Source: Haloferula sp. BvORR071 (lineage in GTDB: Bacteria > Verrucomicrobiota > Verrucomicrobiia > Verrucomicrobiales > Akkermansiaceae). Taken from it: a stretch of DNA of 64,000 nt. Shown piece after piece: positions 11,388 through 48,721 of this stretch. Within the stretch, counting starts at the first letter, position 1; each line of letters opens with the position of its first letter. The notes beneath the pieces are model-generated. The model was not told where the DNA came from, did no database searches, and worked only from the letters and a program-made list of their open reading frames with translations. The position numbers were made by a program, and so were the translations under genes. The stretch covers positions 310,001 to 374,000 of the forward strand of contig NZ_BATP01000003.1 of NCBI RefSeq assembly GCF_000739615.1. Direction: 5' to 3'.

Positions 11388-11525
11388 ACTGGGTGCGCCG
11401 ACTTTAGTCGGCTCGAGTGGGCTGCGGCTGATGATGCCTAGACGTGGTCAAGCATACTTCTTGGACGCCCCGGGGTTCAGACCAAGCACCAACCATTCAA
11501 GCCGACTAAAGTCGGCGCACCCAGT
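11388..11525. repeat. Pair of 26-nt REP-like sequences in inverted orientation
   Basis: A 26-base unit at 11388-11413, with core GCCGACTTTAGTCGGC, is repeated as an exact reverse complement at 11500-11525, with 86 bases between. Each unit itself contains a small palindrome (GCCGACTAAAGTCGGC). This is the organisation of REP/BIME elements mobilised by REP-associated tyrosine transposases. A diverged copy lies at 40909-40937, next to a transposase remnant. Confidence 0.88.
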
Positions 11526-11550: not shown

Positions 11551-12843
11551 CTACTTCCCCACCCCGCCCCCAAGCCCCGCCTTCCACGCCGCGGCGGCGT
11601 TCGCATCCTGCTCCTTCCACATGAATTCCAGGCGCTCGCTGGCAGCCTGGCGGATCTCCGCGTCCCCCATACCGGCAATCCAGCGCGCGGCATCCGTGAA
11701 TTGTTGCTTCTGGATCAGCGTGGGAATCAGGGAAGATGCCAAGGCGTCGCGCTGCACGGAGGGCGGTTGCTCGTCAAACCATGCCTGCACCTTGTCCGGA
11801 TACTTGTTCTGCCACTGGGTCATCGCCTCGCGCATCGGTGCGGGCGCTTCGCGGCTGTCGGAGTGCTCTTGCATCCACCACATCAGGCCAGCCTGATCAT
11901 ACTCGCGGTAGATCGCGGCGGCCACCGCAGTGCCATCCGATTGCAAGCGCTGGTCCGCCGGGATCGCGCCGGACTCCTGGTAGTCCTTCAGCTCATAGAG
12001 ATAGCTCATCATGCCCGCGGTGTCTTCCTGCGGCCAAGCCTTGAGCAACTCGTGATTCAGCTCCGCGTGGTCCCGCGGATTGCCGGTGGACTTCGCGAAC
12101 TCTAACAGACGGCCGCGCATCAGCGGGTCATCCGCATACATGTCGCCCCAGGCGCCCATCAGGTTGAATTCGTCGCGGCCCCATCCCTCCGGCCGCTTGA
12201 TCTTCAGAAACTCCGCGGTGGTACGCTCGAAGTCGCGCTCGATCAGCCCGTACATCGCGTTGCCGCGCAGCTCATCCCGCAGCTTCGCGAATTCCTCCGG
12301 CAGCTCCGCGGAGTCCAGCCAGGCGAAGGCATCTTCCGGATGATCCTGCGCCCAGTTGGAAAAGGCAGTCCGCACCTGCCAATTGCCATAGCCTGGAGCC
12401 TTCTTCTCCAGCAGCCCACGCAGTGCCGCATCCGGATCCTTGATCATCCACGCGGTTGCCAGCTTCTCCGAGAGCACCCGGAAGCTATCCTGGCCCTGAT
12501 CCAGCATGAGATAGAGTTCCCCCAACTCGGCGGCATTCAGCTTGCCGATGAGATCATCCATCTGTGCCTGCGCCTCCAAATCAAAGAAAGAATTCGGGCT
12601 GCGTTCCACCAGCGCATTGAGGCGCTTGAGCGTGCTGGCAGCCATGTCGGCGCGAGCAGCTTCCTTCTTGCGGGTTTGCTGCGGGGCGGCTTCGCCCGTC
12701 TTTGCAGCTTTCTGCGTCGACACCGTCCGATCTATGATGCCGGAGCGCGCCATCTGCTGGCCCGCCTTCTTGCCCGCGAAGCCCAGCAGGCCGAGGCAGA
12801 GCAGCAACGCGCCGCCTTTCAGGAGTGACTTAGCGCGTGGCAT
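11551..12843 (-). CDS. Secreted alpha-helical DP-repeat protein, cassette copy A gene 2
   Basis: The 430-residue product has an N-terminal signal or anchor (KSLLKGGALLLCLGLLGFAG). Its body of helical repeats carries the recurring pattern DP-x-A-A or WA-x-D-x-P-x-x-A-x-x-W (for example WAQDHPEDAFAWLDS and REYDQAGLMWWMQEH). These resemble TPR/HEAT-like solenoids used as binding scaffolds; no catalytic motif is visible. Its start overlaps the stop of the preceding gene by 14 bases, so the pair is co-transcribed and probably translationally coupled. It is a close paralogue of the gene at 14143-15429. Verrucomicrobial proteomes hold many such proteins; the function is unknown. Confidence 0.8.
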   Translation of the reverse strand: MPRAKSLLKGGALLLCLGLLGFAGKKAGQQMARSGIIDRTVSTQKAAKTGEAAPQQTRKKEAARADMAASTLKRLNALVERSPNSFFDLEAQAQMDDLIGKLNAAELGELYLMLDQGQDSFRVLSEKLATAWMIKDPDAALRGLLEKKAPGYGNWQVRTAFSNWAQDHPEDAFAWLDSAELPEEFAKLRDELRGNAMYGLIERDFERTTAEFLKIKRPEGWGRDEFNLMGAWGDMYADDPLMRGRLLEFAKSTGNPRDHAELNHELLKAWPQEDTAGMMSYLYELKDYQESGAIPADQRLQSDGTAVAAAIYREYDQAGLMWWMQEHSDSREAPAPMREAMTQWQNKYPDKVQAWFDEQPPSVQRDALASSLIPTLIQKQQFTDAARWIAGMGDAEIRQAASERLEFMWKEQDANAAAAWKAGLGGGVGK

Positions 12844-14041
12844 CGTTGGGGGATGAAGAAAGGTGCTTGCGCATATCGGAGGGCATGGTCTTCAGCCAGG
12901 TCTCGGCAGCAGCGGCGTCCAGCTTGCGCCAGGCCTCGTATTGCTGGATCACGCCCTTCACGTAAGGGCTGCCGCGCTCATCCCTCACGCCCGGTTGCCA
13001 GTTGGTGCGCAGCAGGCTCATGGATTGCTGCTTCACCGCGTTCTCCACCAGATCCGCCCGCCCGTTCTGTGCTGCCCAAGCGATGGCCTTGTCCGGTTCA
13101 TTGATTGACCACGACGAATAGGTGGCGTTCTGCCTCGCCTCGGGCAGGCTGCTGTCCACTTCGGTGATTTTCACCGGCGGCTCGTGACGGTAGAAGGAGT
13201 ATTTCAGGTCGTTCTTGATTTCGGCCAAGCGCTCTTCCGGCAGGCCGGAGCGATCGATCTCCGCGAGCAAGCTTTGCGAAAGCTCCGGGTTGGTGGCCAC
13301 CCGACTTGCCAGAGCCCTGACATAGTAGGTCAGCGCCTGCCCGTTGTTGGTCAGCCCCGCCAAGCGCAGCAGGGTCGCGCGGCGCGATTCCTCCGTCTCG
13401 CCCGGCCGGTCGGCCAGAGCCTTGGCCACGCCGTTTACGGCCGTTGCGGGAAACTCCGCGATCGCCCGCTCAAGGGCCGTCGCCGGGTCTTGCTGCACGA
13501 GCATCTTTCCTACCGCGTTGCCCACCGTCTGCTGCACGAAGCCCCGCCCGGACTTATCAGCCAAGCGCATGGCTCCCTCGGGGTCGTGATCCGCCCATGC
13601 GGTCGCGACAAAGGCAATGGTGTAAAGATTGTTGTAGGCAGGCTGGCCGGCCATCTCCGCCGCAGCCTCGGGGTCGAGCTGGCCCCAGCGGAAGAAGAGC
13701 ATGGAGATCAGGGCCTCATTCACCCGCCGCCGCGGCTCCATCGGGATCTCCTCCAGGTAGGCCTTCACATCCTCCGCAGACATCGCGCGGATGATCTTCC
13801 ATGCCGCCGCTGTCTCATCCGGGGATGGCTGGCTGTGTCCCGCGCGGTGGCGCAGCTCATTCAGCTTGTCGATCTGCTGGGTGCGGGCCTTCGGCGCAGT
13901 GACCCGCCGCACCACGGATTGGAGGGTGATCGGCTTGTTCCCGGCCGAGTCCATCACCCTGCACTCCGCCCGGTAGCCAGCCCAAGTGGTAATCGCCAGC
14001 GTGCTAGCGGCGAGGAGGGCGATGGCTTTCTTGGAGGGCAT
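12830..14041 (-). CDS. Secreted alpha-helical DP-repeat protein, cassette copy A gene 1
   Basis: The 403-residue product starts MPSKKAIALLAASTLAITTWAG, a signal peptide or signal anchor. It continues through a Gln/Lys-rich segment into helical repeats with 'WGQLDPEAAAEMAG', 'WADHDPEGAMRLAD' and 'NEPDKAIAWAAQNGR'. It is the upstream member of a two-gene cassette and overlaps the downstream member by 14 bases. Its paralogue at 15416-16615 is nearly identical over the first 55 residues. The two proteins of the cassette may form a heteromeric extracytoplasmic complex; that is inference from coupling and co-duplication. Confidence 0.8.
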   Translation of the reverse strand: MPSKKAIALLAASTLAITTWAGYRAECRVMDSAGNKPITLQSVVRRVTAPKARTQQIDKLNELRHRAGHSQPSPDETAAAWKIIRAMSAEDVKAYLEEIPMEPRRRVNEALISMLFFRWGQLDPEAAAEMAGQPAYNNLYTIAFVATAWADHDPEGAMRLADKSGRGFVQQTVGNAVGKMLVQQDPATALERAIAEFPATAVNGVAKALADRPGETEESRRATLLRLAGLTNNGQALTYYVRALASRVATNPELSQSLLAEIDRSGLPEERLAEIKNDLKYSFYRHEPPVKITEVDSSLPEARQNATYSSWSINEPDKAIAWAAQNGRADLVENAVKQQSMSLLRTNWQPGVRDERGSPYVKGVIQQYEAWRKLDAAAAETWLKTMPSDMRKHLSSSPNDATR

Positions 14042-14142
14042 GTTAAATCAGGGCGCGATCGGACATAACTACCCGGGCGGAGGCAGGTCAATGCGGCTCT
14101 TCCCGGACGGCACCTTTCCTTTCCCGCAAGGGCTGCCACTAC

Positions 14143-15429
14143 TCACTTCCCGGTGCCCAAGCTCGCCTTCCACTCCGCGGCGGCATTGGCATCCTGTTCA
14201 CTCCACAGTAGCATCAGGCGCTCGCTGGAATCCTGGCGAATCTCCGCATCCTGCATCCCGCCGATCCATCGCGCGGCATCCGTGAATTGTTGTTTCTGGA
14301 TCAGGCCGGGGATCAATGCCGAGGCGAGGGCATCGCGCTGCACGGAGGGCGGCTGCTCGTCGAACCAGGCCTGAACCTTGTCGGGATACTTGTTCTGCCA
14401 CTGCGCCATCGCCTCGAGCATCGGTCCCGGTGCCTCGCGGCTGTCGGAGTGCTCTTGCATCCACCACATCAGCGCGGCCTGGTCATACTCGCGGTAGATC
14501 GCCGCGGCCACCGCCGTGCCATCCGTTTCCAGCCGCTTGTCCGCCGGGATCGCCCCGGACTCCTGGTAGTCCTTCAGCTCGTAGAGGTAGTTCATCATGC
14601 CCGCGGTGTCCTCCTGGGGCCAGGCCTTGAGCAACTGATGGTTCAGCTCCGCGTGGTCCTGCGGATTGCCGGTGGACTTCGCAAACTCTAACAAGCGCTC
14701 GCGCATCAGCGGATCATCCGCATACATTCGCCCCCAGTTGCCCATCGGGCTCATCCTCCCATACTGCTCTTCTTCCGGCCGCTTCCACTTGAGATACTCC
14801 GCTGTGGTTTGCTCGAAGTCCCGCTCGATCAGTCCGGACATCGCCGTGACCCGCAGGTCCTCGCGGAGATTCGCCGGTGCGTCCGGCAACTCCGCGGAGT
14901 CCAGCCAGGCAAATGCATCCTGCGGATGGTCCTGCGCCCAAGTGGCAAAGGCTCTGCGCAGCTGCGAGTTGTCGGCCCCGGGAAACTTCTGCACCAGCCA
15001 TTGAAAAGCCGCATCCGGATCCTTGGCCATCAGCTCGTCGTCCAGCTTCGCGATCAGGATTTGAAAGCTCTCCTGCCGCTGATCCACCATCTTGTAGAGT
15101 TCCATCAACTCAGCGCCATTCAGCTTCGCGATGAGATCGCCAATCTGCGCTTGGGCCTCGCAATCCATCCGCAGGTTCGGGCTGCCCTTGATCACTGCAC
15201 TCAAGCGCTTGAAAGTGCTGGCGGCGAGTCCGTCGCGGGCGGCTTCCTGCTTGCGGGTCTCGCGGGAAGCTTCACCCGCCTTCGCCGCCTTGGACGGAGC
15301 CGTGCTGCGGGCCACGATGCCGGAGCGCGCGAGTTGCTCGCCCGCCCTCTTGCCCGTGAAGGCGAGCAGCCCAAGGCAGAGCAGCAGCGCACCGCCCTTG
15401 AGGAGTGATTTGGCTTTAGCGCGTGGCAT
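14143..15429 (-). CDS. Secreted alpha-helical DP-repeat protein, cassette copy B gene 2
   Basis: This 428-residue protein is the paralogue of the product of 11551-12843. They share the N-terminus (SLLKGGALLLCLGLL) and an almost identical C-terminal third (EYDQAALMWWMQEHSDS, then QWQNKYPDKVQAWFDEQ). The middle is more divergent. As in copy A, the start overlaps the upstream gene's stop by 14 bases. Relative to copy A it carries a two-residue insertion (MPRAKAKSLL versus MPRAKSLL). No catalytic motif is visible. An exported scaffold or binding role is likely. Confidence 0.8.
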   Translation of the reverse strand: MPRAKAKSLLKGGALLLCLGLLAFTGKRAGEQLARSGIVARSTAPSKAAKAGEASRETRKQEAARDGLAASTFKRLSAVIKGSPNLRMDCEAQAQIGDLIAKLNGAELMELYKMVDQRQESFQILIAKLDDELMAKDPDAAFQWLVQKFPGADNSQLRRAFATWAQDHPQDAFAWLDSAELPDAPANLREDLRVTAMSGLIERDFEQTTAEYLKWKRPEEEQYGRMSPMGNWGRMYADDPLMRERLLEFAKSTGNPQDHAELNHQLLKAWPQEDTAGMMNYLYELKDYQESGAIPADKRLETDGTAVAAAIYREYDQAALMWWMQEHSDSREAPGPMLEAMAQWQNKYPDKVQAWFDEQPPSVQRDALASALIPGLIQKQQFTDAARWIGGMQDAEIRQDSSERLMLLWSEQDANAAAEWKASLGTGK

Positions 15430-16615
15430 CGAGGGTGGATGGGGAAAGGTGCTTGCGGAGATCGGCCGGCATGGTCTTCAGCCAGGCTTCGGCAGCGGCG
15501 GGGTCGAGTCGCTGCCAACCTTGGTACTGCTGCACCACGCTCTTTACCGCGGGATTGCGCACCTCCTGCCTCACACCGGGCTGCCAGCTGCTGCGCAGCA
15601 GGTCCATGGCTTCCCGCTTCACCTGGGGTTCCAGCAGGTCCGTCCGGCCATTCTCTTCCGCCCAGGCGAAGGCCTTGGCCGGGTCCCGGTAAGACCAGCG
15701 GAAGTAGTCCTCATTGGTCACGGGCTGGGCGCCATTCGTGCCGGGCTGCGGGGGGACATAGTGGGCCAAGCAGGAATCCAACGAGGACTTGATGCTGGCT
15801 ATGCGGTCTGCGGGCAGGCCGGAACGATCGATTTCCGCGAGGAGACTCGGCCCGATTCCCGGGTCCTTCCGCGAAGGGAGCGCCATCCCTTGGAGAAAGT
15901 AGTTGAGCGCCTGCCTGTTGTTCTTCAGACCTGCCAAGCGCAGCAGGGTTACCTGCCTCGACTCCTCCGTCTCGCCCTCCCGGGTGGCCAAGGCCATGGC
16001 CACGCTGTTCAGGGCCCCGGGGAACTCTGTGATCGCCCGCTCTAGGGCCGTTGCCGGATCCTGTTGCATCAGCATCATCCCCCCGGCGTAGCCCACCACG
16101 TTCTGCACGGCACCCGGTCCGAGCTTATCGGCCCAACGCATGGCTCCTTCTGGATCACGGTCCGCCCATGCGGTGGCCACAGCGAGGATGAGGTTGGAAT
16201 CTCTCGCGTAGGGAGCCTGGACCGCCGCCTCTGCCGCCGCCTGGGGGTCGAGCTGGCCCCAGCGGAAAAAGAGCATCCGCACCAGCGCTTGGTTCACGTT
16301 GCGGGGAGGCTCCAGCGGGATCTCATCCAGGCAAGCCTTCACGTCCTCCGCCGTAAGCGCACGGATGATCTCCCAAGCGGTCTTGGTATCGCCGGCAGAC
16401 ATCGCGGTGCGGCCGGCTCGTTGGCGGATTGCGTTGAGCTTGTCGATCTGCTGGGTCCGGGACTTCGGCGCAGTCACCCGCCGCACCACGGATTGGAAGG
16501 TGATCGGCTTGTTCCCCGCCGAATCCATCACCCGGCACTCCGCGCGATACCCCGCCCAGGTGGCGACGCCCAGCGTACTTGCTGCGAGGAGCGCGATGGT
16601 CTTCTTGGAGGGCAT
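15416..16615 (-). CDS. Secreted alpha-helical DP-repeat protein, cassette copy B gene 1
   Basis: The 399-residue product (MPSKKTIALLAASTLGVATW signal) is the paralogue of the product of 12830-14041 and the first gene of the four-gene minus-strand array. Repeats include WGQLDPQAAAEAAV, WADRDPEGAMRWAD and RDPAKAFAWAEENGR. The ~150 bases upstream, between 16615 and the divergent gene at 16766, must hold the promoter of the array; no clear -35/-10 pair could be fixed by eye. The about 100-base gap between copies (14042-14142) would allow a separate promoter for copy A. Confidence 0.8.
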   Translation of the reverse strand: MPSKKTIALLAASTLGVATWAGYRAECRVMDSAGNKPITFQSVVRRVTAPKSRTQQIDKLNAIRQRAGRTAMSAGDTKTAWEIIRALTAEDVKACLDEIPLEPPRNVNQALVRMLFFRWGQLDPQAAAEAAVQAPYARDSNLILAVATAWADRDPEGAMRWADKLGPGAVQNVVGYAGGMMLMQQDPATALERAITEFPGALNSVAMALATREGETEESRQVTLLRLAGLKNNRQALNYFLQGMALPSRKDPGIGPSLLAEIDRSGLPADRIASIKSSLDSCLAHYVPPQPGTNGAQPVTNEDYFRWSYRDPAKAFAWAEENGRTDLLEPQVKREAMDLLRSSWQPGVRQEVRNPAVKSVVQQYQGWQRLDPAAAEAWLKTMPADLRKHLSPSTLDATR

Positions 16616-16765
16616 GTTAGATCAGAATCTCACGAGAGATATCTGTAGAGCCGGAGGCAGGTCAATCCGGGACCTTCCAATTGCCGGCTTTCCTCTCATG
16701 CACCACCCGCCGTTTGAGCAAAGATTGAATTCCCCTCCACATTCCGACCTGCTAACGGAATCCCG

Positions 16766-17389: not shown

Positions 17390-19666
17390 ATGAATCAAGC
17401 AACCGTGCGACGAACCCTCGTCAGTCTAGCCCTTCTCACCGCCGCGCCCTCCGCCTTTGGTCAGGAGAAGGATTGGTACAAGAACATGCAAATCGGTCCG
17501 GCCTGGAGCGATACCTTCGCCGGCACGCTGGGCGGCAAGGAAGGCCCGGTCGCAGTCAAAGGCATCCTCGTCGATATCGGCGAGGGCAACCGCGTGCTCT
17601 TCGACACCGAGACCCTGCGCGTGGTCTCCGCCTACCATGGTGACATCAAGTGGGGCGGCACCCCATGGACCGGCGAGCACGGCAAGCTGATCGCGATCGA
17701 CAACGGCGGCGACAAGGCGCTCGTCAGCATCCCCGCCGGCCCCGGCTGGGCGGATGCCTCCGGCAATTTCACCGACAAGCGCGACAAGGAGCTCCACGGC
17801 TGGGGCAATCTCGAGCACGCGAAATACAAGGGCTTCTTCCGCGACGGCAAGAAGATCATCTTCTCCTACGAGGTGCTCGGCACCCCGGTTTACGAGTCCT
17901 ACGAATCCATCCCGAATGGCATCGTCCGCCAGTTCCAGGTGGCCGCGCACAAGCAGGCTCTCAGCTTCGCGGTCGCGGGTGCCGATGACGCCCTGACGGT
18001 GAGCGCGGACAAGGCCGGCCTGAAGTCCGGCGCCTCGGTCGCCATTGGCGGCAAGGGCCCGAGCCTCGCGAAGGACGGCGGCCTCGTGGTTGCCCGGCTT
18101 TCCGCCTCTTCCGCGCCGATCACCTTCACCGTCGCCTACACCAAGGGCGAAGCCGCAGCCCCCGCGCCCGTGGACTTGGCGGCCCTCACCAAGGGCGGCG
18201 ATCCGCTCTGGGGCAAGGAGATCAAGGTCGCTGGCAACGTCTCGACGGACACCAAGGCCCCGTGGGTCACCGATACCATCCCGGTGCCGAGCGACAACCC
18301 GTGGAAGGCCAGCATTCGCTTCAGCGGCTTCGACTTCATCGATGAAGACACCGCCGCCGTCTGCACCTGGAACGGCGACGTCTGGACCGTCTCCGGCCTG
18401 AAGGGCGACTGGTCGAGCCTCACCTGGAAGCGCTTCGCCTCCGGTCTCTTCGAGCCCCTCGGCCTGAAGGTCGTCGATGGCAGCGTTTACGTCCACGGCC
18501 GCGACCAGATCACCAAGCTGACCGACCTGAACAAGGACGGCGAGGCGGACCGCTACGACGCCTTCTTCCGCGATGAAGCGGTCTCCCCGAACTTCCACGA
18601 GTTCGGCTTCGAGCTGCAGACCGACAAGCAGGGCAACTTCTACACCTGCAAGGCCTCCCCGGTCCGCGGTGGCGGTCGTGGCTTCGATACCATCTACCCG
18701 AGCCATGGCACGGTCCTGCAGATCTCGGCAGACGGCACGAAGAGCCGCGTGATCGCCACCGGTCTGCGCGCGCCCGGCGGTCTGGCAGTCGGTCCGAACG
18801 GTGAGATCACCACCGGCGAGAACGAGGGCACCTGGCAGCCCTGCTGCAAGCTGAACTACTTCACCCCGAAGGATTTCAAGGACGGTCCGGTCTTCCTCGG
18901 CACCGAGCCGAGCAAGCACGACGCCAAGAAGGACCTCCACGAGCCGCTCTGCTACTTCCCGATGAGCGTGGACAACTCCGGAGGTTCCCAGGTCTGGGTG
19001 CCGGAGGGCGTGGACTTCGGTCTGAAGCCCGGCGAGCTCATCCACGGTTCCTACGGCCAGTCTTCCCTCTTCCGCGTGCTGCCGGATCCGGTGGATGGCG
19101 TAATGCAGGGCGGCGTGGTGAAGCTGCCGATCACCCTGGGTGCCTCCGCAATGCGCGAGCGTTTCCACAAGGATGGCTCGATGTATGTCTGCGGCCTGCG
19201 CGGCTGGCAGACGAATGCAGCGAATGAAACCGCCTTCCAGCGCATCCGCTACAACAAGGGCGTCGCAGTGCCGCTGCCGAACAAGGTGGAATTCACCAAG
19301 ACCGGCGTGCGTATCAGCTTCGAGAAGTCGATCAGCGCTGACCTCGCCAAGGATCCCGCCAGCTACAACGCCGAGCGTTGGAACTACGTCCGCGGCCCGC
19401 AATACGGTTCCGGCGAGTTCTCCGTGGATAACGTCGACCAAGACGCCGAGAAGCGTGCCCTCGACAAGGAATCCCACGATTACAAGAAGCACGACGCGAT
19501 CAAGATCACCGCTGCCCGCCCCTCCAAGGACGGCAAGTCGGTCGAGCTCGATTTCGAAGGCCACAAGCCCTCGATGACCCTCAAGGTCGCCTGGGATCTG
19601 GAAGACAGCGCCGGCGAAGTGGTCAAGGGCGAATACTACGGCACCTATCGGAAGGCCGGGAAGTAA
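17390..19666 (+). CDS. Secreted DUF6797-type protein with beta-propeller (glucose/sorbosone dehydrogenase-like) region
   Basis: The 758-residue exported protein (signal MNQATVRRTLVSLALLTAA...FGQ) has an N-terminal module containing KGILVDIGEGNRVLFDTETL and YHGDIKWGGTPWTGEHG, typical of DUF6797. A six-bladed propeller-like region follows (VCTWNGDVWTVSGL, LNKDGEADRY, GLRAPGGLAVGPNGEITTGE). Such proteins are abundant in Planctomycetota and Verrucomicrobiota and usually sit in polysaccharide-utilisation contexts. No heme CxxCH motif is present, so a c-type cytochrome role is excluded. It is single, and a strong terminator follows. Confidence 0.8.
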   Translation: MNQATVRRTLVSLALLTAAPSAFGQEKDWYKNMQIGPAWSDTFAGTLGGKEGPVAVKGILVDIGEGNRVLFDTETLRVVSAYHGDIKWGGTPWTGEHGKLIAIDNGGDKALVSIPAGPGWADASGNFTDKRDKELHGWGNLEHAKYKGFFRDGKKIIFSYEVLGTPVYESYESIPNGIVRQFQVAAHKQALSFAVAGADDALTVSADKAGLKSGASVAIGGKGPSLAKDGGLVVARLSASSAPITFTVAYTKGEAAAPAPVDLAALTKGGDPLWGKEIKVAGNVSTDTKAPWVTDTIPVPSDNPWKASIRFSGFDFIDEDTAAVCTWNGDVWTVSGLKGDWSSLTWKRFASGLFEPLGLKVVDGSVYVHGRDQITKLTDLNKDGEADRYDAFFRDEAVSPNFHEFGFELQTDKQGNFYTCKASPVRGGGRGFDTIYPSHGTVLQISADGTKSRVIATGLRAPGGLAVGPNGEITTGENEGTWQPCCKLNYFTPKDFKDGPVFLGTEPSKHDAKKDLHEPLCYFPMSVDNSGGSQVWVPEGVDFGLKPGELIHGSYGQSSLFRVLPDPVDGVMQGGVVKLPITLGASAMRERFHKDGSMYVCGLRGWQTNAANETAFQRIRYNKGVAVPLPNKVEFTKTGVRISFEKSISADLAKDPASYNAERWNYVRGPQYGSGEFSVDNVDQDAEKRALDKESHDYKKHDAIKITAARPSKDGKSVELDFEGHKPSMTLKVAWDLEDSAGEVVKGEYYGTYRKAGK

Positions 19667-45857: not shown

Positions 45858-47741
45858 ATGTCCGCCCTGCTATCCGCCAATGAGATCCGCCTCGCCTTCA
45901 GCTACCAGACGCTGCTGGACGGTGTAACGCTGGCCGTGGCGGCGGGCGAGAAGGTCGGCCTGGTGGGCCGGAACGGCTGTGGGAAGACCTCGCTGCTAAA
46001 GATCCTGACGGGGAGCGAAAAGGCAGATTCCGGGGAAATCTCGGTGCGCCGGGCACTGCGGATCGGGTATCTGCCGCAGGAGTTCGAATTGGATCCGGAG
46101 CTCTCGGTGCATGAGAACATCGCGGCAGGCGCGGCTGACATCGTGGACGCCATTCGCCGCTATGAGGATGGCGAAGGCTCTGAGGCAGAGCTCTCCGAGT
46201 TGCTACATCTGATCGAGCATGCCGATGGCTGGAACCTCGACGCGCGGATCAAGGCCACCGCAACGGCCCTCGGCACGCCGCCGCTTGAAGTAGCAGTGGG
46301 CCCGCTCTCCGGTGGTGAGAAGCGCCGGGTGGCACTATGTCGGGCGCTGGCATCGCAGCCGGATCTGCTGCTGTTAGACGAGCCGACGAACCATCTGGAT
46401 GCGGAATCGATCCGCTGGCTGGAAGACTTTCTCAAGACCTACTCGGGCGCGGTCATCTTCGTCACCCACGACCGCTACTTCCTGGATGTGATCGCCACCC
46501 GGATCATCGAGATCGACCAAGGCAAGGCATTCTCCCATCCGGGCAACTACACCGCCTATCTGGAATCGAAGGCGGTGCGCCAGCAGATCGCCGAACAGAC
46601 CGAGCGCCGTCGCCAGCGTTTCCTGCGCGAGGAGCTGGAGTGGGTGCGCTCTGGGGTGAAGGCACGTGGCACGAAGTCCCGCCACCGCTTGGATCAGTTT
46701 TATGAGATCGAGGGCCTGCAGGCTCCGCCGGAAGAACGGGAGATGGATCTCTTGATCCCTCCCCCGCCAGATCTCGGGAACATCGTCGTGGAGTTGGAAG
46801 GTGCGGGTGTGAATGTCGGCACGGCGAACTCGCCGCGCTGGCTCTTCCGCCACCTCAATCTGGAGCTCCGGCCCGGCCAATGCACCGGCATCGTCGGACG
46901 CAACGGCGTGGGCAAGACAACCCTGCTGAAGCTCTGTCTCGGCCAGCTCGAACCGACCGAGGGCAAGGCCACGGTGGGCAAGAAGGTCAAAGTGAACTAC
47001 ATCGACCAGACGCGGATGGCGCTCGATGGCACCGGCTCGCTGTTAGATGAAGTGGCGGACGGCAATGAGAAGGTGCAATTCGGCAACCAGACCCTCGGTG
47101 CTCGGACCTATCTGCGACGCTTCCTCTTCGATGACCGGCGGATCAACGAGCGTGTGGACCTGCTTTCCGGTGGCGAGCGTGCCCGTCTCATGCTCGCGAA
47201 GGTGCTGAAGACCGGCGGCAATCTGATCGTGCTCGACGAGCCGACCAACGACCTCGACCTGCCCTCGCTGCGGATGCTGGAAGAAGCGCTCGCCGACTTC
47301 GATGGCACGGTGCTGGTGGTTTCCCACGATCGCTACTTCCTCGATCGGATCTGCGATCAAGTAGTGGCCTTTGAAGACAATGGTGTATTCGTCCAGCCGG
47401 GCAACTACTCCTACTATCTCGAAAAGCGTCAGGCCCGCGAACAGGTCCAGCGTTTCCACGCCCAAGCTGCGGCCCGCGATGCCGCCGCACGCCAGAAGGC
47501 CACTGGCCCCGCGGAGACGAAGCCGCGCAAGTTGACGATGGCCGAGCGCAAGGAGCTGGAAGCCATGGAGGAGACCATCATGGTCGCGGAGGAAGCCGTA
47601 GCTGGGCTGGAGGGCAAGCTGGCGGATCCTGAGTTTCAGAAAAATTTCGCGGAGATTCCCAGGGTGGCCGCGAAGCTGGAAGAGGCGAAGACCGAGGTCG
47701 CGCGGCTGTATGCTCGCTGGGAGGAGCTGGAAGCGATTTAA
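45858..47741 (+). CDS. uup: ABC-F ATPase, Uup-type
   Basis: The 627-residue cytosolic protein has two ABC domains: Walker A GRNGCGKTS, signature LSGGEKRR and Walker B LLLDEPTNHLD, then GRNGVGKTT, LSGGERARL and LIVLDEPTNDLD. A linker with YTAYLESKAVRQ and an Arg-rich RSGVKARGTKSRHR follows the first domain, and a C-terminal coiled coil (EAMEETIMVAEEAVAGLE) matches Uup. ABC-F proteins act on the ribosome; Uup also affects precise excision and DNA topology. It overlaps the convergent DP-repeat gene by 4 bases. Confidence 0.92.
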   Translation: MSALLSANEIRLAFSYQTLLDGVTLAVAAGEKVGLVGRNGCGKTSLLKILTGSEKADSGEISVRRALRIGYLPQEFELDPELSVHENIAAGAADIVDAIRRYEDGEGSEAELSELLHLIEHADGWNLDARIKATATALGTPPLEVAVGPLSGGEKRRVALCRALASQPDLLLLDEPTNHLDAESIRWLEDFLKTYSGAVIFVTHDRYFLDVIATRIIEIDQGKAFSHPGNYTAYLESKAVRQQIAEQTERRRQRFLREELEWVRSGVKARGTKSRHRLDQFYEIEGLQAPPEEREMDLLIPPPPDLGNIVVELEGAGVNVGTANSPRWLFRHLNLELRPGQCTGIVGRNGVGKTTLLKLCLGQLEPTEGKATVGKKVKVNYIDQTRMALDGTGSLLDEVADGNEKVQFGNQTLGARTYLRRFLFDDRRINERVDLLSGGERARLMLAKVLKTGGNLIVLDEPTNDLDLPSLRMLEEALADFDGTVLVVSHDRYFLDRICDQVVAFEDNGVFVQPGNYSYYLEKRQAREQVQRFHAQAAARDAAARQKATGPAETKPRKLTMAERKELEAMEETIMVAEEAVAGLEGKLADPEFQKNFAEIPRVAAKLEEAKTEVARLYARWEELEAI

Positions 47742-48721
47742 GGACGCTTCGCGCCGGTCCTTTCTGTGATCCGGGCCAACTCCATTTCGGCGCGTTCCCG
47801 CATCCTGCCCTCGGGAAACTCAGCGACCCATTCGTGAGCTTGGGCCATGTCTTTAAAAGCGAGGCGCTGGACGATTCCAACGACGGCATTCTCCGTAAGG
47901 GAATCGCTGTTTACGGCATCGATCACGAGGCCTGCTGCGGCGGTCGGATCTTGATCTGACAAAGACATTGCCGCGGCGGTGATGAGCTTGTCTTTCAGCG
48001 AAGGGTCTTTCATTCCGCTCGCCCAGCTCAATGCTGCCTGGGGGTCCTTGGCCGCCCAAATGCCTGTTGCCTGACCGAGAAGTTCTTCCGCGGCCGGGCT
48101 AGCTCCGGCCTCCTGTGCGAGTTCAATGGCCTGTTTGGGATTGTCGGATGCAAGGTGGTTGCCTGTTCCGATGAGGGCTGCTTGGCGACGGCCTCCTTCG
48201 GGCAATTGCCTTGCCCAGATTAGGCTCGCGGTAGAGTCGTGCTTCGCCCACGTCTCTGCGATCACGCGACAAGCATCTGCTGGAATGGTTCCTCCAAGTG
48301 CGAATGATGCCGCGGCACTTGGGTCCTTTTCAGTCCAAGCTTGCAGCAGCTTCAGGCGGAGTTCGGCGATGGCGGGATCTTTTCCCTGCCCTTCCAGGCT
48401 GGCTAGTTCCGCCAACACGCCTGCGAAGTCATCCGAGCTGAAGGAATCCACCATCCGGTGGAAACTACTCTCACCGTCTCTTGCGGCCTCAGTCATCGTG
48501 CTCTCGCCGGGCATCCCGAGCAAGCGCGCCGCAAGCCGCTGGTAGCGGGCGGGATCGAGTCTCCGATCTCTCGGTGACTGACCCTCTGCATGGACTTGGG
48601 TGGTCCTTGCAGTGGACTTCTTTTCAATCGGGCTGCGGGATGACGGCTTCCACAATGCCACGGCAATCCCTGCGACCACGATGGCCGTGAACATTCCTGC
48701 AACGCGAAGGGTGCTTTTCAT
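47738..48721 (-). CDS. Secreted alpha-helical DP-repeat protein, singleton
   Basis: The 327-residue product has an N-terminal hydrophobic anchor (RVAGMFTAIVVAGIAVALW), then a basic linker and helical repeats. Their pattern (WTEKDPSAAASFALGG, WAAKDPQAALSWASGM, LSDQDPTAAAGLVID) matches that of the tandem cassettes at 11.5-16.6 kb, but the sequence is more divergent. It is single, not paired. Function is unknown; a scaffold-like solenoid is likely. Confidence 0.78.
   Translation of the reverse strand: MKSTLRVAGMFTAIVVAGIAVALWKPSSRSPIEKKSTARTTQVHAEGQSPRDRRLDPARYQRLAARLLGMPGESTMTEAARDGESSFHRMVDSFSSDDFAGVLAELASLEGQGKDPAIAELRLKLLQAWTEKDPSAAASFALGGTIPADACRVIAETWAKHDSTASLIWARQLPEGGRRQAALIGTGNHLASDNPKQAIELAQEAGASPAAEELLGQATGIWAAKDPQAALSWASGMKDPSLKDKLITAAAMSLSDQDPTAAAGLVIDAVNSDSLTENAVVGIVQRLAFKDMAQAHEWVAEFPEGRMRERAEMELARITERTGAKRP

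Follow-up and report, generated by a model that had tools for sequence, protein, structure and literature searches.

Tandem pairs of overlapping genes in Haloferula sp. BvORR071 and an apparently undescribed superfamily of predicted membrane-anchored helical solenoids

Introduction

Two adjacent pairs of similar genes lie at 11551–16615 in a 64,000-nucleotide stretch of the genome of Haloferula sp. BvORR071 (contig NZ_BATP01000003.1, positions 310,001 to 374,000; here, the window), and they raise the questions of what a two-gene unit of this kind does and how its two copies came to differ. We refer to the first gene of each pair as A and to the second as B (A1 and B1 in pair 1, A2 and B2 in pair 2). 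A and B are, by comparison of their sequence profiles, distant homologues (97.9% probability over 374 columns), and they belong to a superfamily that is apparently both large and undescribed: about 99 open reading frames (ORFs) in one 7.8-Mb genome match its profile, Pfam scans of 32 members revealed no consistent family, and at least 11 of the matches have a sigma domain in the same ORF. Literature listings and abstract openings, the long lists being covered in part, gave no description of the superfamily or of the A/B pair. The interest of the locus lies in this unnamed superfamily, the tandem duplication itself being ordinary. If the paired membrane-anchored layout is that of a sensing system, these bacteria would hold a large unexplored signalling repertoire, and the tandem pairs of the window would be a natural experiment on the multiplication and divergence of its modules.

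Organization of the A/B units

All four genes lie on the minus strand and follow one another as A1, B1, A2, B2. The first pair consists of A1 (15416–16615; 399 aa) and B1 (14143–15429; 428 aa), both called as ORFs and modelled with AlphaFold2, and the second of A2 (12830–14041; 403 aa, 64% identical to A1) and B2 (11551–12843; 430 aa, 74% identical to B1). Coordinates, strand and repeat blocks agree with the original prediction of paralogous pairs in tandem and in the same order. The two units are spanned by nine direct-repeat blocks with a spacing of 2571–2586 bp, one of which is a 51-nt block located 5′ of each A gene (16652–16702 for A1 and 14078–14128 for A2, both minus strand; 71% identical) and containing, at A1, the shared string ATTGACCTGCCTCCG. 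Local alignment of the regions upstream of A1 and A2 gives 66 identical columns of 88, including 30 coding bases, and the comparison as a whole supports a duplication of the entire two-gene unit with its upstream DNA. By eye the 51-nt block is a possible promoter; a scan for sigma-70 promoters found no minus-strand promoter-like site at the shared block and a single site on the opposite strand, and terminator-like sites in the same scan occurred at a frequency expected by chance.

Both pairs have the predicted 14-nt overlap (15416–15429 for A1/B1 and 12830–12843 for A2/B2, minus strand), and both overlaps read ATGCCACGCGCTAA; A1 ends with DATR and its stop codon, and B1 starts with MPRAK. Among 23 distinct A/B junctions, 22 could overlap, by 14 nt in 11, 17 nt in two, 8 nt in two and 4 nt in seven; some junctions have more than one possible start, among which the choice is ours. 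The junction with no overlap is in Haloferula luteola (G005), and it is also the exception among the nine junctions whose B gene scores above 500 bits, the other eight having the 14-nt form. These junctions represent 109 A-type and 96 B-type redundant records, assigned at E 1e-12 with a margin of 20 bits, and they were re-read from the stop-to-stop ORFs of all loci examined because a simple codon-usage gene caller had mis-set some starts (genes A3 and B3 and the B gene of G006). Since overlap is widespread among A/B junctions, the 14-nt form is characteristic of the family, and it was rejected as a mark of the present or of any recent duplication.

Predicted structures

AlphaFold2 models built from alignments of 10 (A1) and 9 (B1) rows are entirely helical. 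That of A1 (mean predicted local distance difference test score, pLDDT, 83.2) has 23 helices and no strands with an N-terminal hydrophobic helix at residues 4–27, and that of B1 (mean pLDDT 82.1) has 24 helices and no strands with an N-terminal hydrophobic helix at 5–35 and a low-confidence linker at 32–58. Helix pairs are predicted to stack over most of each chain, as in an alpha-solenoid, and models of this kind at a mean pLDDT of 82–83 back the helical solenoids of the original prediction; they also make export of A and B plausible. The top VIA-align matches have Z 10.6 for B1 (root-mean-square deviation, rmsd, 15.1; 336 residues aligned) and Z 7.8 for A1 (rmsd 9.1; 233 aligned), and the neighbors are mostly solenoid proteins of unrelated kinds at Z values within the range of a common arrangement; families absent from the match lists of these fold searches are not thereby excluded.

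Profile searches place the proteins in no known family. For A1 no Pfam or NCBIfam family was listed, and for B1 all Pfam and NCBIfam matches fall under the curated cut-offs; these near-misses (DarP, DUF7089, MgtE_N and others) were set aside, DUF7089 alone recurring in both B copies. The known helical repeats TPR, Sel1, HEAT and PPR are not among the Pfam families listed for the four proteins at E 10, nor is any Sigma70 family, and none of the four matches a defence model of PADLOC-DB 2.0.0 at E 0.1.

The superfamily and its sigma fusions

A superfamily profile from a 32-row alignment (alignment A3) matches 129 stretches of the window's genome at E 1e-3, which group into the approximately 99 ORFs; 150 of 315 candidates were scored, and the weaker matches are less certain. 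With a run defined as ORFs on one strand whose match edges are less than 1000 bp apart, 44 ORFs are single and the others fall into 18 pairs and four longer runs (two with four ORFs, one with five and one with six), and we propose that the superfamily has grown at least partly by tandem copying. In the phylum sample at least 69 of 288 genomes match the profile at E 1e-8, with at most six candidates scored per genome; the 20 listed genomes of group g3, in the same family as the window's genome, gave no match. Pfam searches of the 32 members of alignment A3 at E 0.01 found no consistent family and no TPR, only three families with one member each (best E 0.003), and a sequence search of the PDB with the superfamily profile returned 11 weak matches (best E 0.01).

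The same genome has 66 Sigma70_r2 matches (three below the Pfam cut-off), 11 of which share an ORF with the solenoid profile. These 11, together with ORFs at L043 3409–5376 and L192 545–2566, were read as a set of 13 sigma-transmembrane (sigma-TM) ORFs. Pfam confirms sigma domains in all 13 (region 4 only in L184 and L043), followed by a hydrophobic stretch that peaks at residues 221–251; in L192 the segment behind the helix matched no profile used. The next gene downstream encodes a solenoid in 10 of the 13, with a 4-nt overlap in seven, and two of these partners start with lipobox-like signals. One sigma fusion aligns over almost its full length in G004, G008, G010 and G015. At L185 (G000:C33:3001–10200) two sigma-TM-solenoid genes stand in succession, each followed by a 4-nt-overlapping solenoid gene with a lipoprotein-like start (LACASC and LAMAAC). 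Another locus, L044 (G000:C40:105737–115759), has six co-oriented superfamily ORFs arranged as three successive pairs, whose products are larger (478–585 aa as called); two of the pairs have 4-nt overlaps.

Extracytoplasmic function (ECF) sigma factors fused to membrane-spanning extensions are described in sections of one account (PMC8999054), including ECF48, ECF52 and ECF53 and the sigma factor IutY, which is released by proteolysis. The sigma-fused relatives found here resemble IutY (ECF243) and SCO4117 (ECF52), as outlined in those sections, in having ECF-type sigma regions, a hydrophobic stretch and a repeat domain. However, their extension is a helical solenoid accompanied by a second, downstream solenoid gene, rather than the anti-sigma or carbohydrate-binding domain described there, and the window genes themselves have no sigma domain. 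The sigma-fused relatives alone are also reminiscent of ECF42, which has a TPR extension thought to act by protein interaction (same sections of PMC8999054), in combining a sigma with a helical-repeat extension; they differ in the hydrophobic helix between sigma and repeats and in the lack of a TPR match in the scanned fusions or in the members of alignment A3.

A proposed function and its alternatives

In the reading that we favor, at about even confidence, A and B form a fixed pair of membrane-tethered solenoids that are made together and act outside the membrane as a binding complex of the envelope. A single membrane helix at the N-terminus would tether each protein, and the solenoid would then probably lie outside the cytoplasmic membrane. 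In the fusions the sigma domain has to be cytoplasmic, so that the solenoid following the membrane helix is expected on the far side, and homology suggests the same for the solenoids of A and B. The overlapping bicistron suggests translational coupling, through which the two proteins would be made together, and an A–B complex might then bind a ligand or partner in the envelope as a scaffold or sensor arm; the window contains one tandem copy of the whole unit, and the two copies have since diverged. Distance matrices of A and B over eight pairs correlate with r 0.83, a value that among 40,320 matchings the true one alone attains. Four related sigma-less pairs, which had been found through A/B searches, have first genes that fit the A profile (314 vs 113 for B) and second genes that fit the B profile (286 vs 100 for A).

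Several observations weigh against a fixed A–B pair acting in this way. When the two window copies exchange partners, r is still 0.824, and the signal is confounded by common genome history, so that the agreement of the matrices is no proof of partner specificity. Six more distant first/second pairs have no preference for the A or B profile. At the syntenic locus of G008 (L058 6950–10689) the order is A-A-B instead of A-B-A-B. Charges, judged by eye, are ambiguous for membrane orientation, and Foldseek gave no PDB hit with E under 0.001, its best values being 0.018 (B1) and 0.055 (A1). The nearest Sigma70_r2 match on the contig is ~84 kb from the window pairs and ~17 kb from a second A/B array, and the profile of the sigma-fused solenoids scores A and B alike (113.3 and 113.2), as do, without preference, the profiles of their partners. 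We therefore tried and dropped the equation of A with the sigma-fused half and of B with its partner; given these scores and the six distant pairs, positional orthology with the sigma operons is not shown.

A more ambitious version, which we put forward tentatively and would not bet on, is that such pairs make up a large undescribed Verrucomicrobiota system of envelope sensing by membrane-anchored solenoids, in which one partner may carry a cytoplasmic ECF sigma and so form a one-step switch from the outside to the promoter, the sigma-less pairs, such as those of the window, being interchangeable ligand-binding arms multiplied in tandem. Alternatively, the window pairs might be sigma-less offshoots of sigma-TM-solenoid operons that occupy or tune extracytoplasmic partners, as modulators or decoys of sigma signalling. 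They share the superfamily and the two-gene layout with small overlaps (4 nt in seven of the ten partnered fusions), and in G004, where as in other genomes the neighbors were judged by their N-termini only, ~4 kb separate an A-type gene from a 471-aa sigma gene (L063 1991–3406) on the opposite strand. The equal scores of A and B, however, do not single out A as the sigma-fused half stripped of its sigma, and the window pairs have no Sigma70_r2 match closer than 84 kb on their contig; we consider an origin as offshoots unlikely.

It is similarly doubtful that the proteins are purely structural scaffolds of the envelope or membrane, coat-like and without signalling. All-helical models with an N-terminal hydrophobic helix would suit such a role, and solenoid-domain coat-like proteins are described in bacteria of the Planctomycetes-Verrucomicrobia-Chlamydiae (PVC) group, to which the window's genome belongs (PMC2799638, in part). 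There, in the part concerned, the coat-like proteins are defined by a beta-propeller before the solenoid, whereas the A1 and B1 models lack an N-terminal beta-propeller, and the window proteins are short (399–430 aa) and begin with a hydrophobic helix; a patchy presence (8 of 18 genus genomes, or nine by the B profile) also fits a core structural role poorly. Co-transcription of A and B with no binding between the two proteins has a similarly low probability in our estimation: the complex is deduced rather than observed, and the A-A-B order in G008 includes an A gene that has no B of its own, but gene order and overlap are kept and A and B occur in the same genomes.

Age of the duplication

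Trees were built from 10 A proteins, with none from G005, and nine B proteins, with none from G015, where a contig end cuts the sequence. In these trees A1 and A2 (support 100/99) and B1 and B2 (100/100) are sisters separate from the syntenic G008 genes; the two A genes of G008, Aa and Ab, likewise cluster together (89/89). Synonymous divergence (dS) between the window copies is 0.74 for A and 0.64 for B; for five flanking genes, in the comparison of the window with G008, it is 0.50, 0.58, 0.72, 0.75 and 1.46, so that the duplication is old rather than recent. Between the window and G008 the A and B genes have a dS of 0.81–1.20. The duplication may have occurred after the split from G008, as in the trees, or earlier with later loss. 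A and B evolve faster than most of their neighbors, amino acid identity to G008 being 42–53% for A1 and B1 and 56–84% for the five flanking proteins.

An asymmetry of rate between the copies was not upheld. Six Tajima tests on amino acids all gave p ≥0.20, and of six on silent codons two fell below 0.05 (0.017 and 0.041), in opposite directions. The tandem duplication is real, old and ordinary in its mode of divergence.

Uneven divergence between the copies

The original prediction held that both ends of the paralogues are nearly identical with divergent middles, and attributed this to diversifying selection or gene conversion after duplication. Windowed identity and the ratio of nonsynonymous to synonymous divergence (dN/dS), which it had proposed as a check, were computed; identity is indeed non-uniform, but the ends do not behave as described. 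A is 90% identical over its first 50 codons, falls to a minimum of 33% at codons 276–325 and reaches only 64% at codons 351–400. B is 75% identical in its first 50-codon window, 57% at 101–175, 80–92% over approximately 226–400 and 78% at 376–425. The nonsynonymous unevenness is significant in both genes (0 of 2000 shuffles of codon columns reach the observed variance in 30-codon windows).

Positive selection was not supported, as dN/dS nowhere exceeds 1: the maximum in any 40-codon window, by the pairwise method of Nei and Gojobori (NG86), is 0.79 for A and 0.71 for B. Identity between paralogues rises with conservation among the other family members in B (rho 0.60, p 0.024, 14 windows) and less clearly in A (rho 0.48, p 0.10, 13 windows), conservation being computed without the G015 row for A and the G005 row for B. 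Uneven purifying constraint explains the pattern better, on these comparisons, than diversifying selection; after tandem copying, ordinary purifying selection would have been strict on residues 1 to ~50 of A and on B in its C-terminal half, with less constraint on the remainder.

A few weak hints speak for gene conversion. The copies cluster by genome both in the window's genome (G000) and in G008, where Aa and Ab are 80% identical in nucleotides over the first 60 codons and 39–59% in windows from codon 91. Further hints come from A, where the window with the fewest silent changes (codons 31–60; proportion of silent differences, pS, 0.21) reaches p 0.079 and identity declines as silent sites diverge (rho -0.53, p 0.06). 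In B, the longest identical run of 38 nt has p 0.058. The variance of silent divergence between windows, however, is like that of shuffles (p 0.17 for A and 0.97 for B). Silent differences over the first 52 codons are also unremarkable, at 14/46 for A1/A2 and 11/45 for Aa/Ab vs 11/37 to 16/38 across the two genomes, and the main tests do not support conversion tracts. Duplication of the unit stands, and we regard it as very improbable that the uneven similarity was produced by diversifying selection or by gene conversion.

Distribution among genomes

Single-protein searches at E 1e-10 matched B in 8 of 18 genus genomes and A in these same eight, a co-occurrence that is partly expected of linked genes. 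The B profile at E 1e-15 finds at least 11 of 244 family genomes, nine in the genus (adding G001) and two in group g13; at most seven candidates were scored per genome, and these counts are lower bounds. Named records with B are Luteolibacter marinus NBU1238 and Haloferula luteola YC6886 (two of 19 pattern stretches confirmed), and a plasmid search with B1 gave no match. In G008 the syntenic neighborhood is kept, with a 751-aa homologue of the window gene at 17390–19666, a cupin and a redoxin, and 61 nt separate Aa from Ab. Copy number therefore varies in the survey that the original prediction had suggested, and the genes are not fixed in single copy.

The second A/B array on the window's contig (L041/L042, G000:C64:505303–524511) has pairs at 505303, 511468, 514154 and 522015; its B-type gene at 515415–516665 was matched across two TAG codons, and its end may be broken. 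The locus L063 of G004 (G004:C1:229001–249000) is a dense superfamily array with several A/B-type pairs overlapping by 4 or 14 nt. The window itself contains a further superfamily ORF, outside any run, at 47738–48721 (a 346-codon open frame; match C64:357798–358721, E 1.9e-27).

Immediately 3′ of B2, at window positions 11388–11525, is an inverted repeat with 33-nt arms that are 94% complementary and 72 nt apart, built on GCGCCGACTTTAGTCGGC. Allowing at most one mismatch, the genome contains this motif 15 times, vs none for a reversed control, and ten of the 15 form five close opposite pairs; the repeat is perhaps of the repetitive extragenic palindromic (REP) type or a small mobile element.

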